Origin: Hericium rajendrae
Lineage: Eukaryota > Basidiomycota > Agaricomycetes > Russulales > Hericiaceae
Direction: 5' to 3'
NCBI GenBank assembly: GCA_033439255.1
Contig: CM065891.1
Coordinates: 1,736,001 to 1,800,000 of the forward strand
DNA: 64,000 nt
The position numbers and the translations under genes are program-made. The notes beneath the pieces are model-generated. The model saw only the letters and a program-made list of their open reading frames with translations. It was not told the origin of the DNA and made no database searches. This document shows, one piece after another, positions 6,118-33,700 of the stretch (its first letter is position 1; each line of letters opens with the position of its first letter).

Positions 6118-7009
6118 CTAGGGACGGTCCCCGATGGGACGATAGGCGCGATTTCCAGCGGCCCATCTGTGGCCTTTGTCGGCTGCGACGCCGGTCAGAA
6201 CGACACCGGCAACGATAGCATAGCTCGCGATCCAAGTAAAGGCACTGAGGTAGTACGACGTGCCTTGAGAGCGAAGAGGCATTAGTCTTCCCACATTGGC
6301 TAGAACGGATAAGAAGAGTACGTACTCGGCTTCGCATGGCGAAACTCCCAGAAGGACGAGGTTCTCCAAAGGTCGGTAATAATAGCCCATGCGATCATAT
6401 GGAAAGTCGCTGTCCACAAGCAGCTGATAAGTACATGTCGCATGGGACGCGAGCAACACACGCACCGTCCAGCGCAAGGAGCACTGCAGTTGCCTTCCAG
6501 ATCCGCCGCCTCCGCGAATGCGTGCTCACCCCAAACAGGAGCGAAAACAGCGCCGCAGCGCCGAACATGACGCTCAGCTCGACCACATATCGCGCGCTGG
6601 ACCACGCGGTGCAGAAGCCCCTGTTCTCCTTCTCGCAGCGGTCGGTGACGCTGGCGGGGAACGGACGGCACTTGAAGTCGGTGTACGCGATCTTGCCGCC
6701 GTCGGAGGGGCCTGGAACCTCGATGACACTACGCTCGCACCGCTCGGTGAGGCCGTAGCGCACGGTTACACGCGTGTGGACGATGTCGGAGCTCTTGACG
6801 ATGAGCCTGCGAGAGCGCGCCCGTCAAAACGATATGTATAAGCGCAAGAAGGGCGCGGACCAGTCAGTGCGCTCCGCCGCGAAGATTTTCTGCGATTTGG
6901 AGGAACGTGAGTGCTAGGCGTTGGGGTGCCGGATTCGAACTGATGGGCTTACCAGGATTAAGAGCACGGTGACCAGGAAAATGGCGATCGCATACGATGT
7001 TTTCCTCAT
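6118..7009 (-). CDS. Four-helix membrane protein, basidiomycete family
   Basis: Read from the ATG at 7007-7009: MRKTSYAIAIFLVTVLLIL is a first membrane segment, then an intron, then KIFAAERTDW. A second intron of 54 bp (phase 2, TG/G) removes an apparent in-frame stop and leads to LIVKSSDIVHTRVTVRYGL. The loop is cysteine-bearing (TERCERSV, CRPFP, DRCEKENRGFC). Three further hydrophobic segments follow (LSVMFGAAALFSLLFGV; around TAVLLALDA; SAFTWIASYAIVAGVVLTGVAA), and the end is AAGNRAYRPIGDRP. The shape (short N-terminus, Cys-rich first loop, four segments) recalls claudin/PMP22-like proteins, but this is only topology. Proteins of this kind are, to my recollection, widespread as hypotheticals in Agaricomycetes. 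Function unknown. Confidence 0.75.
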
Positions 7010-7218
7010 TGTTGCGAGCACGCAGCTGACGAGTAAAGGGGCTAAAAGAACTCAGGGATGAATGGTGGGATTGAATGAAGGAGTTTATAGGTAAACGTTG
7101 ACGTTGAGCTCGTTCTGCCAGTGGGCCTGGTCGCTTCCCGATACGCCCGGACCCAAATGGTGACGTCGTTCGCTCCCACCATACATGTCATGAGGTTACA
7201 ATTCGACTCCTCTCTCAA

Positions 7219-7302
7219 GTCCTTGTAGATTAGTGGTTAGATCACCACGTTGTGGCTGCTTACGTAACCGTGGTGACCCAGGCTCGACTCCTGGCAAGGA
7301 CA
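7219..7302 (+). tRNA. tRNA-His (GTG) with intron
   Basis: The acceptor stem gtccttg pairs perfectly with caaggac (7295-7301), followed by discriminator A. The D arm contains tagattagtggttaga, the typical A box. The anticodon stem ccacg pairs with cgtgg around a loop ttGTGgc, giving anticodon GTG. A 12-base intron lies at the usual 37/38 position. The T arm is cccaggctcgactcctgg. Seven T residues follow directly. The whole fold is convincing. Confidence 0.93.
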
Positions 7303-7303
7303 A

Positions 7304-7310
7304 TTTTTTT
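7304..7310 (+). terminator. RNA polymerase III terminator of tRNA-His
   Basis: A run of seven T residues starts two bases after the tRNA acceptor stem, the standard Pol III stop signal. Confidence 0.8.
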
Positions 7311-7350
7311 GCATTCCATTTATGTTGCACTTGAGAGCACTTGAAAGAAA

Positions 7351-7492
7351 GTGTGTATTGTGGATTACATTAGCATTTATGTCATTTAAAAATAAAAATA
7401 AAATTTACACACTGATCACAATGTCATATGCAAAGGTTATATCTAACAAGAGTTGAAAACAAACTATAGAAAATTGCATGCTACAAAAGTGT
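7351..7492. repeat. 142-bp repeat copy L1 (left flank of Ngaro element)
   Basis: This AT-rich block, starting gtgtgtattgtggattacat and ending ctacaaaagtgt, is identical base for base to 15188-15329. It contains no CpG. It is one arm of the foldback described at 15188-15870 and ends exactly at the left edge of the Ngaro-like element. Confidence 0.9.
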
Positions 7493-7821
7493 TCGCGATT
7501 AAACAAGTTGTTTAATCAAGGCTAATGGTCCGTGCGCCCGGACTGCCTGAGCTCCGCTCTCCGTGAGCCGCTCACTGCGAGCACGTCTCCGCGGGCGCCC
7601 GCGCCATGTCGAGCCTGGTCTCCGGTGCGTCTACTTTGTCTCCGTCTTTTCCTCTTGCGGCGTATCCACTTCGCTAAGCCTGAAGGGCACACCGACGGTC
7701 GAAGAGGGGCCCTCGCCGCTTGCTCACGACCGTCGTGTGCCTTCAGGTATGTCGCTGACTCCTTCATCTCTCAGGCCACTCGCTCACAACCGTTGTGCGC
7801 GTTCAGCTTTCAGTTCGAGCG
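7493..7821 (+). repeat. Ngaro split direct repeat A1
   Basis: 329 bp, matching A2 (14622-14950) at about 95%. Similarity starts at tcgcgatt and stops abruptly after cagttcgagcg, which defines the left terminal repeat of the element. Confidence 0.88.
7497..7517. promoter_or_regulatory. Perfect 21-bp palindrome at element end (candidate recombinase site)
   Basis: The arms GATTAAACAA and TTGTTTAATC flank a single G, four bases inside the left end. The same palindrome is intact in A2 at 14626-14646, beside the B1/A2 junction. Tyrosine recombinases bind inverted sites at the crossover point, so this is a plausible recombination site. The role is inferred. Confidence 0.45.
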
Positions 7822-7875
7822 TATTACGAAATCTTTGATTTCCGTCGAGCATCAATACTCTCCACATGTCAGGTA

Positions 7876-9154
7876 ATGGAGAACACACAGGGGCAGATCA
7901 TTCTCGAGGAGGAGGAGAGGCCGCACAACGGCCGCTCATCCAGCCCGCGCGCTCAACACACGAGGAACGCCTCGCACGCCGCCTGCGCCCGATCCGCCTC
8001 CTTCATTCAACGCCGAAGTTGTCGAGGGTTGCTCGGACATCGTCTCCCAGTTCCGAACTGGAACTATCTCTCACATCGAAGCCATCTCCGAGATCCTCGG
8101 GAAACTCGGAAGTGTCCCCGATGTCCCAAAGGAGACATATCTCCAAGCCGGGCAAGTTTTCATCAGCATGCTCGACAATTTCACTCGAGCGCAGCGAGGT
8201 GCAGAGGAACGAGGACAATCAGGGGCTACAAGCATTGCCGCAGCAGGAGGGCCTTCTGCCGCCCAAGCAGAAGCGACTCAGCCATCGCCGCAGGACCGCG
8301 ATAGTCGCTTGCCTGTCAGGACAAAGCGCCGCGCGCACCGTCCATCGATAGCGATGACGACGAGGAAAGATCTGTCTACGACAGGAAGCGGCCGCTCGAT
8401 CTCTCCGAGACCCCTGGTTCGAGGTCGATGACGCCGCTCCATTGCCGGAGCCGCTCGAGAAGACCAGACGACTCATCGTGCTCTTCGCTGAAGATCCCAA
8501 GCGCTGGAAGACACTTATCACCAATCGGGGGACTGCCCACAGTTCCCCGATTCTGAGTGGTCCAACATCTTGGCGGGACGAGTGATTAACCTCGATGCAG
8601 TCCACACGTCGACGTTCAGCATCGCCGTTGAGAACAAACACAAGGAGCGACTCGGGAAACTTTCCATCTCATTCAATGATGTCGTCGCCGCAAAACTGTC
8701 ACGACACACGGGGAATGGCTCGCCGCATGGGAACGAGCTTCACGCGCCACTGCCTTTGTCTTCCCACACCGACGCAGCGAACTCGATGCCTACCGCGAGC
8801 ATGTCTCCCAGCTGTTCGTCGTTATCGGCTCCACACATCAAGAGAAGGTTCTCAGGTATGACAGGGGAGTCCGTGCCCGAGTCTCGTCCCGACGCAATGT
8901 CCTCCTCACCGACATCCTCGAATTCCTCGACCTTCAGACCCAATGGATTTTCTCCGTTGGGGCCGGGGTGGTGAAGGATCGACAGCGCCAAGCGGAAGTC
9001 GCTCTTCTGGCTGCCCACGCAAGCGCGACCCCTGCCGTCGATGGAACGATGGAAGATGTCCATCCGCTACCAAAGACTGTTTCTGGGCTCACATCTGTTT
9101 GAAGTGCCGTTCGGTCCGCACACACCGCCGGTGCGTGCAGTGCCGGACGTGCCT
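7876..9154 (+). pseudogene. Ngaro ORF1 (gag-like) remnant
   Basis: Coding-like text jumps between frames: SFNAEVVEGCSDIVSQF and SHIEAISEILGKLG (about 8005-8100), RAQRGAEERGQSGATS, PLEKTRRLIVLFAEDPKRW (about 8450-8510), WSNILAGRVINLDAVHTS (about 8560-8620), WERASRATAFVFPHRRSELDA, and a final cysteine-rich stretch CRRWNDGRCPSATKDC-FWAH-ICLKC (about 9030-9100) that looks like a CCCH zinc finger. This order (coiled N-terminus, conserved mid-block, terminal zinc finger) is what I recall of the first frame of agaricomycete Ngaro elements. At least two frameshifts are needed, so it is broken. Confidence 0.6.
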
Positions 9155-9186
9155 GATCTCGAAATGGAAGCTCTGCGGCATTGCCG

Positions 9187-11377
9187 GATCATGATTTGGT
9201 CCCTCGAGGAGCCACCCACTTACACACCAGCCGTGGATTGGTCCCTTACGGCTCCTCCTCTTCCTTCAGTCCCAGAAAATGAGCTTCAGGACGATGTTGC
9301 TCGCAAAACAATATCAGAACACAATGATCTTTTTGCTATCCCTTGTCATATTCACCGAGAAAAATATGAAGATTATCTCACAATCCATCCTAATGTTGCG
9401 TTTGTTGACTCGGTTTGTGGTGGTCTGCGCGAGGGCTATTGGCCTTCGGCTATCACGGGCAGACCCGGTTACCCGACCACATGGGACAATTCTCATCGCA
9501 ATCTTGCCTCTGATGCTCATCGCCAATTTGTGAACAAACAATGCCAAAAGGAAATCGATGTTGGGCGCTTCTCCGCCGCATGGGAAGCCGAGGAACTGTA
9601 CCCTGGCATGTACAGCATGCCCATAGGCGTCGTGCCGAAGCCCAATTCGGACAAGCTTCGGCTGATCACTGATCATAGTGCGGGGAAATTTTCTCTGAAC
9701 TCTATGATTCCGAAACCTTCTTTCGATGAGAAGGTCCAGCTTGATAATGTGCAGGACCTGGGCCAGGTCCTGCTTCGCATCCGACGGGATCATCCCGGGT
9801 GTGAGCTGGTTCTCTTCAAGTCAGATGTCTCGGAGGCGTATCGACAGATGCCGATGAGCCCTTATTGGCAACGGTATCAGATCGTCTCCATCGGTATATG
9901 GCGCATGGTCAACCGGTGCAACGTCTTTGGAGGATGTCGCTCCGGGAATATCTGGTGTGCCTTTATGAGCCTTGTCCTCTGGATTGGGGTTTATATTTGG
10001 CACCTCAGTGATCTGCTCGCATACTCTGATGACACTTTTTCGTGGGAGTTCGCGGAAAATATGTCCTGGTACGCGCCTTATTCACGCTGGCTGCCTACCA
10101 AGCAAGCTCGGCTCCTCGAGCTCTGGGATGAACTAGGCATCCCGCATCAATCAGCCAAGCAGATCTGGGGATCACCCCTCGAGATCATTGGCTTCCTTGT
10201 CGATGCGAATTGGATGTGCATTACTCTCTCGGCGGAGAGACGTGCCGCATTAGTGGCCGCCATACGTGACTTCATTTCGGGCTCGTGCCATCGCCGCTCA
10301 CTGCGACAGTTCCAGGCACTCGCCAGCTGGATCCAGTGGTCTCTTAATGTTTGGCCGCTACTCCGTCCCGGCCTGTCCCAGCTGTATGCAAAGACACGCG
10401 GTGATGTGTGGACCCTGGGAATGGAGGCGGCAGCCAAAACCAAAACCAACAGAGTACCGGGGGGTGCGAGGGGACCAAGTATCTCAAGTGAGGAGTGAGG
10501 TGAGGGCAGCTGAGGGTCACTGCAGCAGGGATAATGGAGCGACCGGTTCGCTAAGGGCGAGTCTGAGGCGATCTGGTGATAAGCGGCTGGGAAGGATGAG
10601 GAACGGCTGTAGAATGACAAGGAGAACGACGAGACACATGGGTCTCTGATACGACGGACTAATCCTAGAGAAAAGGACTGAAAAGCGGCTGATATGACTG
10701 AATCTGATGAACGACGCTGCGGGCGGACTGGCCTAAAGAGGGCGAACTTGTCTAAAGTCCGGAGAATGATGAGAACAACAGTGAGAGAGACTTCTGAGGT
10801 CTGAGCTCTGAGGGGGAAAGGTGCACTGAGGGGTTCTATTCGAAGCTGGGACTCTCTCTACCATACAAGTAAGAAACTCGCCCTTGGCGGTCTCGGGCGA
10901 TCTCGGACTCGGCTGCTCTATGGTACATCTATGGTCCGAAACCATCAAAAGGCGGCATCCAGGCATCCTGTACAACACAGACCCAGTACCATAATGCCAG
11001 CAACCTGATTGGCTCACCAAAACTGCTGAGGATGACCTGGAGCGAACTTGAGGAAACCTCGGTGAGGCCTGCAGTAGCTGACAACTCCTGAGATGAGGGA
11101 CATCACCGCTCTGAGCGAGGTTGGTGGGTGAGGAGCTGGAAGCTGGATGGAAGTGAAGGGGAACTGTATGGAAGATGGTGAGATGAGGTCTGACGTTGCT
11201 GAACACAGCTTGAGGCGTATCAGCGGCAAGACGCGCCCGCATGCCCTCATTGAAGTTACGGCGCCGCTTCGCAAGGAACTCACTTGGCTCGCGGATCACA
11301 TCGAGCATGCCAATGGTGTGTTCATGCTTGATTCACTCACGTGGCGCGCTTCTGACGCCGATCTCGTCCTCTACAGT
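9187..11377 (+). pseudogene. Ngaro reverse transcriptase/RNase H, interrupted
   Basis: A continuous frame to 10393 shows the reverse transcriptase core: MYSMPIGVVPKPNSDKLR, the acidic motif FKSDVSEAYRQMPM (about 9815-9860), NRCNVFGGCRSGNIWCAFMSL, the catalytic YSDD box in LLAYSDDTFSW (about 10015-10045), then KQARLLELWDELGIPHQSAKQ and PLEIIGFLVDANWM, and LLRPGLSQLYAK. The next expected words, ISGKTRPHALIEVTAPLRKELTWLADHIEHANG, appear 825 bp later at 11219, leading into RNase H-like DADLVLYS. The frame is cut again at 11378 by a second insertion. The catalytic residues are intact but the protein cannot be made whole. Confidence 0.82.
10394..11218. mobile_element. 825-bp non-coding insertion in the Ngaro RT gene
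   Basis: It splits the conserved string LYAK / ISGKTRPHA. The insert is purine-rich on the plus strand with many tgagg/tgagg-like words and has no convincing frame. I found no terminal inverted repeat or target duplication at its edges, so its class is unknown. Edges are set by protein continuity and should be good to a few bases. Confidence 0.55.
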
Positions 11378-11699
11378 CATCTGAAAAATTGTTATTCCAC
11401 ATAGCACAGTGTTGATTTATGTGTCCTATTATAGTGCTATGAGGTCTATGACTATCTATGTAGCTACCCTTCTCAACTATGTAGGGCTACAAGGCCTATC
11501 ATAGCTTCCATAGCAGCAGTGAGACATTATACAGTGCTATATGTTTCTGAGGGGCAGCTATAGTTGCTATGTAAAGTCATTGCTTGCTATGGTCTCTATG
11601 GTCTCTATGACCCCTATTATTAGTACCATCTCAAGTTATCCAGGTACGAAAGATATAAAGTCAAAATTGATTATATTTAAGATAGCTACTAATACAATG

Positions 11700-12760
11700 A
11701 ACTACACTACAAGTTGAAAGGTGAGGCACGGAAGGGCACGGACGCGCACAAGATGCTGGGTCCGTGCGCGAGGCGCGGCAGGTGCAGTGGCTGTGCAGGA
11801 GGTGCGGTGAGTGCGGCGGGCATGCAGTGGCCGTGCGCACCGGCGTCGGGCTGCGGCGATTTCGTGCGCGAGGTACCGGGCCCGTGCTTGAGGTGCGGCA
11901 GGGTGCGACGTGCGGGCGCGACGTGCGGCGGACGCACGCGGGGCGCTTGGCTGCCGCTGGCTCGTGCGCGAGATACGTAGGGCGCGGTGGCCGGGCGCGA
12001 GGTGCAGCGGGACGTGCGCGAGGCACTGGGCCCGTGCGCGAGGTGCGGCGGGCGCGGGATATGACGGGCAGGTGCGAGGCGTGGCGGAGGCGCGGCGAGG
12101 GTGCGCGAGATACGGCGCACGTCGCTGGGCGTGGGGCTGCCGCGGGCTCATCCGCGAGGTGCCGCGAGGCATCGCGGGGCGTGGGGCATCGCGAGGCGTG
12201 GCGGAGGCGCGGCGGGGGTACGCGAGGTGCGGCGGGGGTACGCGAGGTGCGGCGGGCGTGCGCGAGGCACAGAGCCCGTGCACGGCGCAGCAGGCCCGCG
12301 CAACGAAGCGCGAGGCGTGAGGTACGGGCCCGCGTGCGAGGCGTCGGCAGGCCTGCGCACGGCCACGCACGACGTGCGCGCCTGCGTGTGCCGGCTGGCA
12401 TACCCGCGCGCGGCTGTGGCCATCCGCCGGCCGTGCGTGCGCTGGCGTGTGCAGCACGACGGGGTTGCGCGCAGCGTCTGGGCCCGTGCGCGAGATGGGG
12501 AGGCGGCGAGCGGCGGGCTGCCGTGTGCGTCGTGCAGCGGTGTGGCGGCGGAATCCTGCTGTGGCCGCGCGTGTCGTTGCTACGGCGTTGCGGTGTCGTT
12601 GCCGTGGGTTCACGCGTGGTCTGGCCCGTGCATGAGGTGTCGACGGCGCCAGCATATCGCAGGGGCGCGGGAGGAGGGAGACGGCGTTGCTGGGGGGTGT
12701 CGAGAGCACGGCCGCCGTTGAGGCGGCATGCAAGGGTTCGGGGTCGTGGATGGGGCGTTC
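11700..12760. repeat. GC-rich low-complexity block
   Basis: Degenerate repeats of words like gcgcgaggtgcggcggg cover about 1 kb. All frames stay open by composition; the minus strand reads as long Arg/Pro/Ala/Thr-rich text. I do not regard any of these frames as a gene. The very different composition from the flanking AT-rich DNA suggests amplification inside the nested element. Confidence 0.6.
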
Positions 12761-13368
12761 CTGCGGCGCGCGGAGCTCTAGTGACGTGGCGATGAAGGGA
12801 GAGGGACGGCGAGAGCGTGGTGATGCTGATGAGGGTGCGGATAAGGCGGCGAGGACGAACGAAAGAGGGAAAACGAGAGTACCGCCCGTGAAAATGGGCG
12901 GTACTCTCTGCCTTAGTAGAATACAAAAAAAGAGAGACGTTATCACTTACCTCGTGCCCTGTGCCCACCCATTCGAGTCCCGCATGCATTCGAGCGGTCC
13001 GTCGTCCAGAAGTACGAGAACAAAACGGGAGGGGCAGGGGAAGGGAGGAGGGGTGGGAGATGGAGTTGATAGTGAGTGGGTAAATCGAACAGAGTCGCGC
13101 GTTCGGTGCTTCAGCCACCGGACGCTGCGAGTTCGAATGTTTTCGAACGTTGCAAATCAGATAAATTCACATAAAATCTAAAGAAAAGACAGTATCTAGC
13201 GTTTATTAGTCGAACTCGATTGAATGAGCTACATGTCTACCTAACGTACTCTAAGCTACTGAGCAGCGAAGGTAGGCTAGTGAAATCTGGCCCCTTAGCC
13301 TCTGACGTGGTGCCCGGCAACGACCGGCCCGCTCTCGGCAAGCTATATTTAACGCTCCGCTCGCCACG

Positions 13369-13450
13369 TCTATATAAGGCGTGCGCGACGCGCTGTCTCT
13401 CTCTCTTCCCTACCACTACCATCTCTCGTCTTTCGTCATCTCTTCTCTTC
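13369..13450 (+). promoter_or_regulatory. TATA box plus pyrimidine-rich start region inside nested element
   Basis: tctatataaggc at about 13369-13380 is followed about 20 bases on by a ctctctctcttcc tract, typical of a strong fungal promoter. No gene follows: downstream is AT-rich non-coding sequence. It may be a captured promoter or an LTR-like fragment. Confidence 0.35.
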
Positions 13451-14472
13451 TGCTTTAACTTTCTTATGTTTGGTAAGTTGTCATATTGTTTTATTGTCTC
13501 TAACCTTATGTTATTTGTGGCCTTTGCATTTTCGCTTTTTTATTTCTTGATATGTTGTTATATTGTTTGATTGCTTCTAATCCTATTGTTCTTTGCAGAC
13601 TTTTGCATTTTTGCATTTATCTTCTTAGCTAAGCTTTATGTTTTATTTTCTTGTCTTGTAATACTAATTTGTTGACTTCTTTTGTAGATCATTTTTGCTT
13701 TTTCTTATCTCTATAGTAAGTCTTATCTTTTATCTTATCTTTGTCTTATTGTATAGTCTAATCATATTTTATAGTCTATTATGGATATTTTAGATAGATA
13801 TGTTAGTAATATTTGCAGTAGTGTACAAGATGTATTATTTGAAATATAATGCTTTGAAAATTTCGATGTTTTGAATATTTGAGATATGCTATTATTTTAT
13901 TTTTTGTTGGTAGAGGTAATATAGAGTAGATAGTAGTCTGACTAGCTAGATATAATATGATACTAAGGATATACCACATAGATAATATAGCTACAATAAT
14001 CATCATATGCTATGATAGCTATAATAGCTATTGTCCTATAGCAGATGACTATAATGGTTATGATAGTTATTATCTCATCTTATAACAACTATGATAGCTA
14101 TGATAGCCCTATATAGATTGCCTTGCTGCTATGAGAAGCTATGTAGAAAAGAAGACTGCTATGAGAAGCTATATAGAAAAGGAGACTGCTATGGCCCTAT
14201 CAGAGCTATATAAGCTATATAGTGTTATATACCACTGTTATATTTTTCAGATGCAGACACGTTTCAGATTTATATTCGAAAAAATCCTGTCATTCTTACT
14301 GCTTTACTATTCCAGACTGCACACCCTAACATATAAAATCAATCTTGCTATTGTATGTCTCTTCTCTTGTACTTGTATTGTCTCTTTTCTTCACTCGTGA
14401 CCATCCATCCCGTATCCTTTCTATTTACTCCCCCCTACTTATTGCACCACTACTCTTCCTCCAATAGCCATA

Positions 14473-14621
14473 GGGATCATCTTTCGCAGCGGTACGATAA
14501 TACAGCCGTTTCTCTCGGGCCGCCCGTTCCGTGCGTGTGCGGGGGTGGCTGCGACTCCCTATGTCGCCCGTCTGCTTCTCCTTTTGAGCTCCGTCCGTGC
14601 CTGCATGCAAAGGACAATTAG
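14473..14621 (+). repeat. Ngaro split direct repeat B1
   Basis: 149 bp from gggatcatctttcgcagcgg to ggacaattag. It matches B2 with five differences, all transitions, and is joined directly to A2 as expected for Ngaro. Confidence 0.88.
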
Positions 14622-14950
14622 TCGTGATTAAACAAGTTGTTTAATCAAGGCTAATGGTCCGTGCACCCGGACTGCCTGAGCTCCGCTCTCCGTGAGCCGC
14701 TCACTGCGAGCACGTCTCCGCGGGCGCCCGCGCCGTGTCGAGCCTGATCTCCGGTGTGTCTACTTTGTCTCCGTCTTTTCCTCTTGTGGCGTATCCACTT
14801 TGCTAAGCCTGAAGGGCACATCGACGGTCGAAGAGGGGCCCTCGCCGCTTGCTCACAACCGTCGTGCGCCTTCAGGTATGTCGCTGACTCCTTCATCTCT
14901 CAGGCCTCGCGCTCACGTCCGTCGTGCGCGTTCAGCTTTCAGTTCGAGCG
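14622..14950 (+). repeat. Ngaro split direct repeat A2
   Basis: Second copy of A, starting tcgtgatt directly after B1 and ending cagttcgagcg. It contains the same 21-bp palindrome (14626-14646) as A1. Confidence 0.88.
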
Positions 14951-15020
14951 CCCACCCACCCTCCCTCGTTTTTTCTTGTTTCCATACTTGTACCTACATG
15001 CTTTCCCTGTATTCTCGTCG

Positions 15021-15169
15021 GGGATCGTCTTTCGCAGCGGTACAATAATACAGCCGTTTCTCTCGGGCCGCCCGTTCCGCGCGTGTGCGGGGGTGGCTGC
15101 GACTCCCTATGTCGCCCGTCTGCTTCTCCTTTTGAGCTCCGTCCATGCCTGCGTGCAAAGGACAATTAG
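15021..15169 (+). repeat. Ngaro split direct repeat B2 (right end)
   Basis: Second copy of B. It ends ggacaattag, where the host sequence acaaagttattc resumes. This fixes the right end of the element. Confidence 0.88.
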
Positions 15170-15187
15170 ACAAAGTTATTCAAATTA

Positions 15188-15329
15188 GTGTGTATTGTGG
15201 ATTACATTAGCATTTATGTCATTTAAAAATAAAAATAAAATTTACACACTGATCACAATGTCATATGCAAAGGTTATATCTAACAAGAGTTGAAAACAAA
15301 CTATAGAAAATTGCATGCTACAAAAGTGT
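15188..15329. repeat. 142-bp repeat copy L2
   Basis: Identical to 7351-7492. Both L copies would have been followed by acaaagttattcaaatt before the insertion (15170-15186 and 15330-15346), so the target was a tandem duplication of about 160 bp. Confidence 0.9.
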
Positions 15330-15870
15330 ACAAAGTTATTCAAATTTGACTGAGAAATTGTAATTTTTATTTTTTTTAAGCTCAACAATAAGACAATGAC
15401 ATGCTCTAGAAATATATGAGAACACTCTTGAAGATGAAGGACATACTGGTTTTTTGAAATTGATTATTCAGCTCTCATATTTGTAATACCTTCTGAGAAA
15501 TGGTCAATCTCTTTTGCCAAACAACATTGTTCTGCACACAAAACAGCAAAATGACCACTTTGTAGAAGGAATTGCAGACATTTGAGATCAGTGGATCTGA
15601 TTTGATCAACTTCAAAAATTAGCATGTGCATTGAGCATCTTCAAGAGTGTCCTCAAAAATTTTTACTGTCTTCTTGTTGAATAGACCAACTTACAGTCTC
15701 TCAGCCAAATTTGATCAACTTTGTAAACTTTTGTAGTGAGCAATCTGCAATTTTATTCTTATTCTATGATATGTTTTGAAGCTCATTTAGATTCAGAGTC
15801 CACTAATTTGCATAACATGATTGGATGAGGAGGTCATCTAAGATGTTAGTGAGGCATTGAAAATAGCCTC
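15188..15870. repeat. Long imperfect palindrome (foldback element), arms about 340 bp
   Basis: Reading inward, the left arm words gaaaacaaactatag, gctacaaaagtgtacaaagt, caaatttgactgaga, acactcttgaagatg, ttttttgaaattgatt and accttctgagaaatggtc each have a diverged inverse partner in the right arm, in mirror order around a centre near 15525. Pairing weakens in the outer 80 bp. The sequence is AT-rich and non-coding. It behaves like an old foldback or MITE; the left arm is duplicated and carries the Ngaro insertion. Confidence 0.7.
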
Positions 15871-16354
15871 TGGGATATCATACCATAGATTTTATGCCAC
15901 AGAAAGTCATCCATCATGTATGATTGCAGAAGAGGATTGCAGAATCATTTACATCATGATTTATAAGCGGGGTGTTGAAAAATATGAGAAACACTACAAT
16001 CAAAGGGGCAGGCATCCTTTCGCATGCCTCTGTATGTGCATACTTTCCCTGCGGCACAAGTTTTTCGTTATGCGCTGACACACCCGTGATGTCGGCCTGA
16101 TAGCATGACAGGGAATGTGTTTCAGTTGCTCTGATATTACGGTGTCTCTGAGGTCTTCTGCATTGATGTTTACCATCTTGCGAAACGATTGATCGGATCT
16201 TCATGGCATATAACCCAGTGAATGATGCTGCAGGAGTCCGGTCATATATATATTGGACCTGGACACTAAACCACATATATGCAGTCCGCGACCGGCCGAA
16301 AGCCCGTGTGTAATCAGAAAAAAAAAATCCTACCAGTATCCCTGCCCAATGCCC
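15871..16354. other. 3' flank of PNS1
   Basis: No supported gene. Short frames on both strands have no recognisable motif. It probably contains the PNS1 3' untranslated region. Confidence 0.4.
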
Positions 16355-33606: not shown

Positions 33607-33700
33607 GGTACTGTAGCCAAGTGGTTTAAGGCGTCACGTTTAGGCAATATCAGCCGATCCGTGATGGGTAACCTCGCGAGTTCGAATCTCGTCAGTGCCA
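33607..33700 (+). tRNA. tRNA-Leu (TAG) with intron
   Basis: The acceptor stem ggtactg pairs with cagtgcc (33693-33699), with one G-T pair and discriminator A. The D arm is gccaagtggtttaaggc. The anticodon stem tcacg/cgtga holds the loop ttTAGg, and an intron of about 14 bases lies at position 37/38. A long variable arm (tgggtaacctc) and T arm gcgagttcgaatctcgt follow, as expected for a leucine tRNA. A T run begins five bases downstream. Confidence 0.93.

Follow-up and report, generated by a model that had tools for sequence, protein, structure and literature searches.

The window, a stretch of 64,000 nucleotides from Hericium rajendrae, carries a Ngaro retrotransposon with split direct repeats, set between a tRNA gene and a foldback sequence (Table 1). 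Repeat searches recovered the A1...B1-A2-B2 layout, the split-direct-repeat feature of Ngaro elements, with A1 and A2 95.4% identical over 329 bases and B1 and B2 96.6% identical over 149. The two host junctions read as the earlier note had given them: A1 starts TCGCGATTAAA directly after host gtgt, and B2 ends GGACAATTAG directly before host acaaag. No inverted pairs of at least 40 bases were found between 6800 and 16800 in an ungapped search, so the inverted terminal repeats of DIRS1-like elements are not seen here; a gapped self-search returned as inverted matches only the foldback and a short dyad at the B1-A2 junction, with its A1 counterpart. The identification as Ngaro and the split-repeat layout stand. 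The layout had also been called complete, which is true of the terminal repeats and not of the interior, which is broken and in which no recombinase match was found.

Table 1. Features of the Ngaro locus and its host setting, in window positions.
Feature	Position	Strand	Basis or remark
tRNA gene, read as His(GTG), intron of 12 bases	7219-7302	+	Rfam RF00005, 54.5 bits
Host DNA, first part of interrupted 160-base unit	7350-7492		143/143 identical to 15187-15329
A1 terminal repeat	7493-7821	+	repeat comparison
gag-like remnant	7830-9153	+	three main tblastn pieces in different frames; query, gag ORF of the C2 copy
Reverse transcriptase segment	9263-10402	+	91% identical to pol of the C2 copy; YSDD box in alignment
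High-copy insertion, 821 bases	10402-11222		boundaries approximate
pol remnant 3' of insertion	11216-11377	+	alignment with C2 pol segment, residues 379-432
DNA without match to the C2 copy	11378-14255		occupies the place of the remaining pol and recombinase region
B1 repeat	14473-14621	+	repeat comparison
B1-A2 junction dyad	14612-14660	+	self-inverted match, 86% over 49
A2 repeat	14622-14950	+	repeat comparison
B2 repeat	15021-15169	+	repeat comparison
Host DNA, last 17 bases of interrupted unit	15170-15186		unit rejoining
Intact second host unit (built-in empty site)	15187-15346		160/160 against rejoined first unit
Foldback (palindromic) core	15310-15744		self-inverted match, 65% with gaps, E 1.6e-20; relatives on C17
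Dispersed short repeat, right side of foldback	15753-15913		77-86% identical

Coding content and decay

From its sequence we read the window copy as dead: gag is broken, an LTR-like insertion interrupts pol, and no recombinase gene was found. The 821-base sequence lying in pol, probably a solo LTR, has at least 40 genomic matches including itself, the others being 96-98% identical and several of them paired about 4.38 kb apart. Its family is recent, abundant and of LTR type. Part of the unmatched DNA further downstream (13140-14255) belongs to a very common dispersed repeat, up to 85% identical among the 40 scored of 391 first-look candidates. A tblastn search of 7001-16000 with the recombinase-like ORF of the C2 copy gave no match at E 1e-3, which we read as loss because relatives keep such an ORF. 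The reverse transcriptase ORF alone matched no Pfam family when five window ORFs were scanned. As to RNase H, only a pol fragment is kept in the window, and no RNase H profile match was obtained in the pol of the relatives.

Two relatives were inspected, and both retain gag, pol and recombinase-like ORFs. PF00589 was detected in both of the recombinase-like ORFs (E 0.0011 and 0.081), in each case below the curated cut-off (best score 19.2 bits against 27.1), both ORFs being cut by the end of the locus; an HxxR-like box is visible by eye, and a PDB sequence search with one of these ORFs matched no chain. The pol of a relative from the second lineage matched RVT_1 below the curated Pfam cut-off (E 0.0015), and the pol segment of the C2 copy matched no Pfam family. 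Among the six ORFs scanned, none gave a methyltransferase match.

Host setting and the empty site

The tRNA gene ends 47 bases before the start of the host repeat. A tRNA-His had been named as the neighbour; a tRNA gene is indeed present, and we would read its anticodon as GTG (His) if the 12-base intron lies at the canonical 37/38 position, whereas ARAGORN called the same tRNA Tyr with an intron at 33/34 and reported no tRNA there in its default run. Targeting of tRNA genes as a rule was rejected, as ARAGORN, run on 30 loci, found a tRNA near Ngaro at one; several of the 30 belong to one and the same copy or have short flanks. Elsewhere in the window, at 33607-33700, ARAGORN called a tRNA Pro in one setting and Leu, intron included, in another. 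At C12:2145350-2146320 (L084, L096), downstream of a solo Ngaro, lies a stretch similar to a tRNA 3' half, in which ARAGORN found no gene.

On the other side, the palindrome described earlier as 700 bp long is supported over its core. Its right side enters a separate dispersed repeat (at least 35 matches, the extent set from 22 loci compared past the query end), and its left outer part fits the C17 foldback no better than shuffled sequence does. At its right end the window foldback is similar to the ends of the C17 foldbacks (L026 ~1376-2240, L036, L046), which are long palindromes flanked by TA with CAGTG-like termini, as in Tc1/mariner-type elements. The tRNA and foldback setting looks incidental to the Ngaro insertion.

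When the element is excised in silico, the two host parts of the interrupted unit rejoin to give exactly the intact second unit, 160 of 160 bases, which bears out the proposal that the empty site was a tandem 160-bp duplication. This shows insertion without a duplicated, lost or added base, provided that the host duplication came first; we infer that the duplication is probably the older event. No other copy yielded an empty site. A second one was sought through the flank of C14:828, where a third copy of the flank matches positions 24-156 of 200 only. Two Ngaro A ends (L006, L007) share about 180 bases of host flank, and the third copy of this shared flank (C10:533120-533252) stops 44 bases before the insertion point.

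Could the flanking repeats belong to the element itself in every copy, as the earlier note had considered? This was rejected: none of the other candidates scored matched the 143-base repeat over its full length, and of 13 Ngaro copies compared only the window copy has a longer repeat of its adjoining flanks. The last ~48 bases of the 143-base repeat resemble the C17 foldbacks.

The perfect identity of the flank repeat also bears on age. The pairs A1/A2 and B1/B2 together show 20 differences in 478 positions, and 15 of these are CpG transitions; the 143-base repeat contains neither a CpG nor a difference. By our arithmetic, the chance of no change in 143 bases is about 0.22 at the non-CpG rate of 5/478. 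Since the element's divergence lies mostly at CpG and the flank repeat has none, the two may be equally old in spite of the perfect identity of the flank repeat, and a younger flank duplication, argued from that identity, is not needed.

Relatives and their junctions

The genome searched comprised 46.8 Mb in 19 contigs, and all counts of relatives are lower bounds. A search with the A repeat gave 18 matches, one of them an inverted self-match of the junction. The protein search gave 16; once the window and fragments are set aside, one group of these shares 75-91% identity with the window and a second group 48-49%. Pattern searches returned 21, 3 and 8 matches, with none in reversed-pattern controls. 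Pattern matches in viral and prokaryote contigs (75 and 86) yielded no confirmed Ngaro relative.

Host DNA is faced by 22 A starts; two of these, C14:828 and C2:854, share a flank and were counted once, leaving 21 independent left junctions, of which 14 came from BLAST matches to A (11 + 3) and seven were located by the end motif TC[GA]. Right junctions were read in 17 copies. Since the ATTAG motif served to locate every one of these, copies whose ends differ may have escaped notice. All 21 left junctions begin TC[GA] and all 17 right junctions end TTAG, giving a fixed joining point, ATTAG^TCR, in the copies read. A flank repeat of more than 2 bases abutting both ends was seen in none of the 17 copies read on both sides, which together with the empty site agrees with the lack of target-site duplication that is a feature of Ngaro. 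The earlier note had asked whether other copies would show different ends or clear target duplications, and these 17 do not. One copy deviates: in C8:267370-280400 (L080, L081) a truncated B2 is followed by a 12-base repeat of the left flank, a right end that argues against uniform ends and is unlike those of the 17. No right end was found for C4:1606, C14:828, C2:854 or C10:629, and two B fragments (C15:864618 and C1:1253247) are without an ATTAG-type end. The C5 copy (L088, L092) has one B with no A2-B2 after it, the pattern expected from recombination between B1 and B2.

The host bases on the left side show a preference. Over the five bases before A, 99 of 105 positions are A or T, with the consensus WTWAW (counts in 21 junctions: -5, A9 T11 G1; -4, T18 A1 C1 G1; -3, T14 A7; -2, A18 T2 G1; -1, T12 A7 C2). 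The information in this 5-mer is 4.00 bits, a value that none of 20,000 controls reached (highest, 1.41); the right side carried 0.54 bits in 17 junctions, equalled or exceeded by 11,941 of 20,000 controls, and thus shows no preference. At -4 to -2 the triplet is TTA in 10 of 21 junctions and TAA in six, and the B end has TTA at the same place. G never occurs at -1 (0/21), whereas it is the base at that place in all 17 B ends read. Of the 21 left 5-mers, the one in the window, AGTGT, fits the consensus least well.

The junction dyad

The point at which the element ends are joined lies inside the dyad, between 14621 and 14622. In order, the dyad consists of the B end ATTAG, the A start TCR, an inner stem-loop and CTAAT (CTAAA in the C15 copy only), and the B-A junction forms a nested dyad of this kind in both lineages. 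The window dyad folds at -15.5 kcal/mol (z -8.5). Across 16 junctions, 11 of them natural B1-A2 junctions and five built from one copy's B end and A start, every one folded better than its shuffles, with z from -2.6 to -8.5 and between 0 and 4 of 300 shuffles as stable.

Pairing between the arms past the first five pairs was scored in 14 distinct junctions. Five further pairs gave 47 of 70 paired against a shuffle mean of 34.5 (7 of 100,000 shuffles as high), seven gave 55 of 98 against 41.7 (55 of 100,000), and three gave 28 of 42 against 23.3 (1,589 of 100,000), an excess that is inflated across all junctions by their relatedness. Within the main lineage the figure was 33 of 55 against 28.6 (4,980 of 100,000), or 39 against 35.2 when G.T was allowed (2,387 of 100,000), so covariation there is weak; in the second lineage 14 of 15 positions paired, the best of six orderings. 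An apparent strand bias among the mismatches, 5 G.T to 1 A.C over pairs 6-9, was withdrawn, the counts being 6 to 6 over pairs 6-10 and 10 to 10 over pairs 6-12.

Discussion

To our knowledge, the integration of tyrosine recombinase retrotransposons is poorly understood. The locus described here gives a clean and exact empty site, while its relatives give a fixed joining point, a one-sided target consensus and a conserved junction dyad. The window element is best read as an ordinary Ngaro that entered a site AT-rich on one side. Very probably it is a decayed Ngaro whose cDNA, with its B and A ends joined, recombined at one point into the first of two tandem 160-base units. The recombinase would probably have been supplied by the element's own gene before decay, or by a relative. 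In such an event a joined B-A intermediate would be the substrate of a tyrosine recombinase, and in a single-point exchange host ...WTWAW^ would join A (TCR...) as B (...ATTAG) joined the host base that followed, with nothing duplicated or lost.

How the dyad takes part in this exchange allows several answers. It may well be a conventional double-stranded recombinase site, with one protein binding both arms, so that the arms change together, and with biased heteroduplex repair fixing the joining point; we regard this as a serious possibility while stopping short of favouring it. Tyrosine recombinase sites usually have inverted arms, the main-lineage arm pairing lies barely above shuffles, and the even mismatch count over ten pairs gives no sign of which strand, if any, folds. 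Such a site sits less easily with arms 25-32 bases apart at variable spacing and a joining point at one edge instead of the centre. The standard double exchange of tyrosine recombinases leaves a short heteroduplex. Two staggered exchanges would then be expected to produce two alternative boundaries across events, and only one boundary is seen, also in the 14 left junctions that were found without the end motif. A single boundary fits a single-point exchange such as occurs at integron attC sites (PMC2727003), and the dyad provides a substrate that could fold.

A route like that of integrons can be proposed, tentatively and as the less probable kind of guess. The B-A junction of a single-stranded cDNA would fold as a hairpin with an unpaired spacer, the recombinase would exchange one strand at ATTAG^TCR with duplex WTWAW^, and replication would resolve the product. 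DIRS elements reportedly amplify via linear single-stranded cDNA. The empty site and the relatives together define short DNA substrates that would separate single-strand from double-strand models.

We think it unlikely that the dyad acts only in RNA, for example as a hairpin aiding reverse transcription across the B1-A2 bridge, with no direct role in recombination. The sense strand does fold better than shuffles in all 16 junctions, and in 12 of them its predicted stability exceeds that of the other strand (lower in three, equal in one), yet these energies were calculated with DNA parameters and in many cases differ little. The excess of G.T over pairs 6-9 is gone once the tenth pair is counted, and the joining point sits at the same place within the dyad in the copies read. 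The near-identical repeats on both sides of the element invite the idea that the insertion itself created the 160-base repeat as a giant target-site duplication. We reject this as highly improbable, given that the repeat is offset 17 bases from B2 and does not abut it, that the same 17 bases are absent before the left copy, and that none of 12 other copies has an adjoining-flank repeat over compared flanks of 79 to 1,500 bases (in one of them, C10:52, a 92-base similarity lies far from the junctions).

Single-point insertion of joined ends, our preferred reading, can be set beside known systems. Ngaro elements have been reported from Agaricomycotina and Pucciniomycotina (Muszewska et al. 2013, PMC3783388), and in the parts of that account covered here the described fungal elements share with ours the A-pol-B-A-B repeats and, in related copies, the reverse transcriptase and recombinase-like ORFs; unlike them, the window copy is broken. 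Neither 'target site' nor 'insertion site' is used as a term in the main text of that paper, and no junction dyad appears in the passages covered; literature searches covering part of the matching papers brought up no account of a target consensus or a junction hairpin for Ngaro. DIRS1-like elements (Piednoel et al. 2011, PMC3266345) are likewise tyrosine recombinase retrotransposons without target duplication and with a short junction motif, an NTT proposed, in the parts of the paper covered, to recombine with an identical genomic triplet. They have inverted terminal repeats where the window element has split direct repeats, and in the junctions read here TTA, the triplet that the B end carries, is the most frequent one at the target, with a preference confined to one side.

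The closest parallel in form is with the attC sites of integrons (Bouvier et al. 2009, PMC2727003), which in the sections covered are described as imperfect dyads with two stems and an unpaired spacer and with recombination on one side only. These are sites of bacterial cassettes, and no homology with the Ngaro junction is claimed; use of a single strand is shown for attC and only proposed for Ngaro. Should the proposed route prove true, attC recombination would have a counterpart in a eukaryotic retrotransposon.
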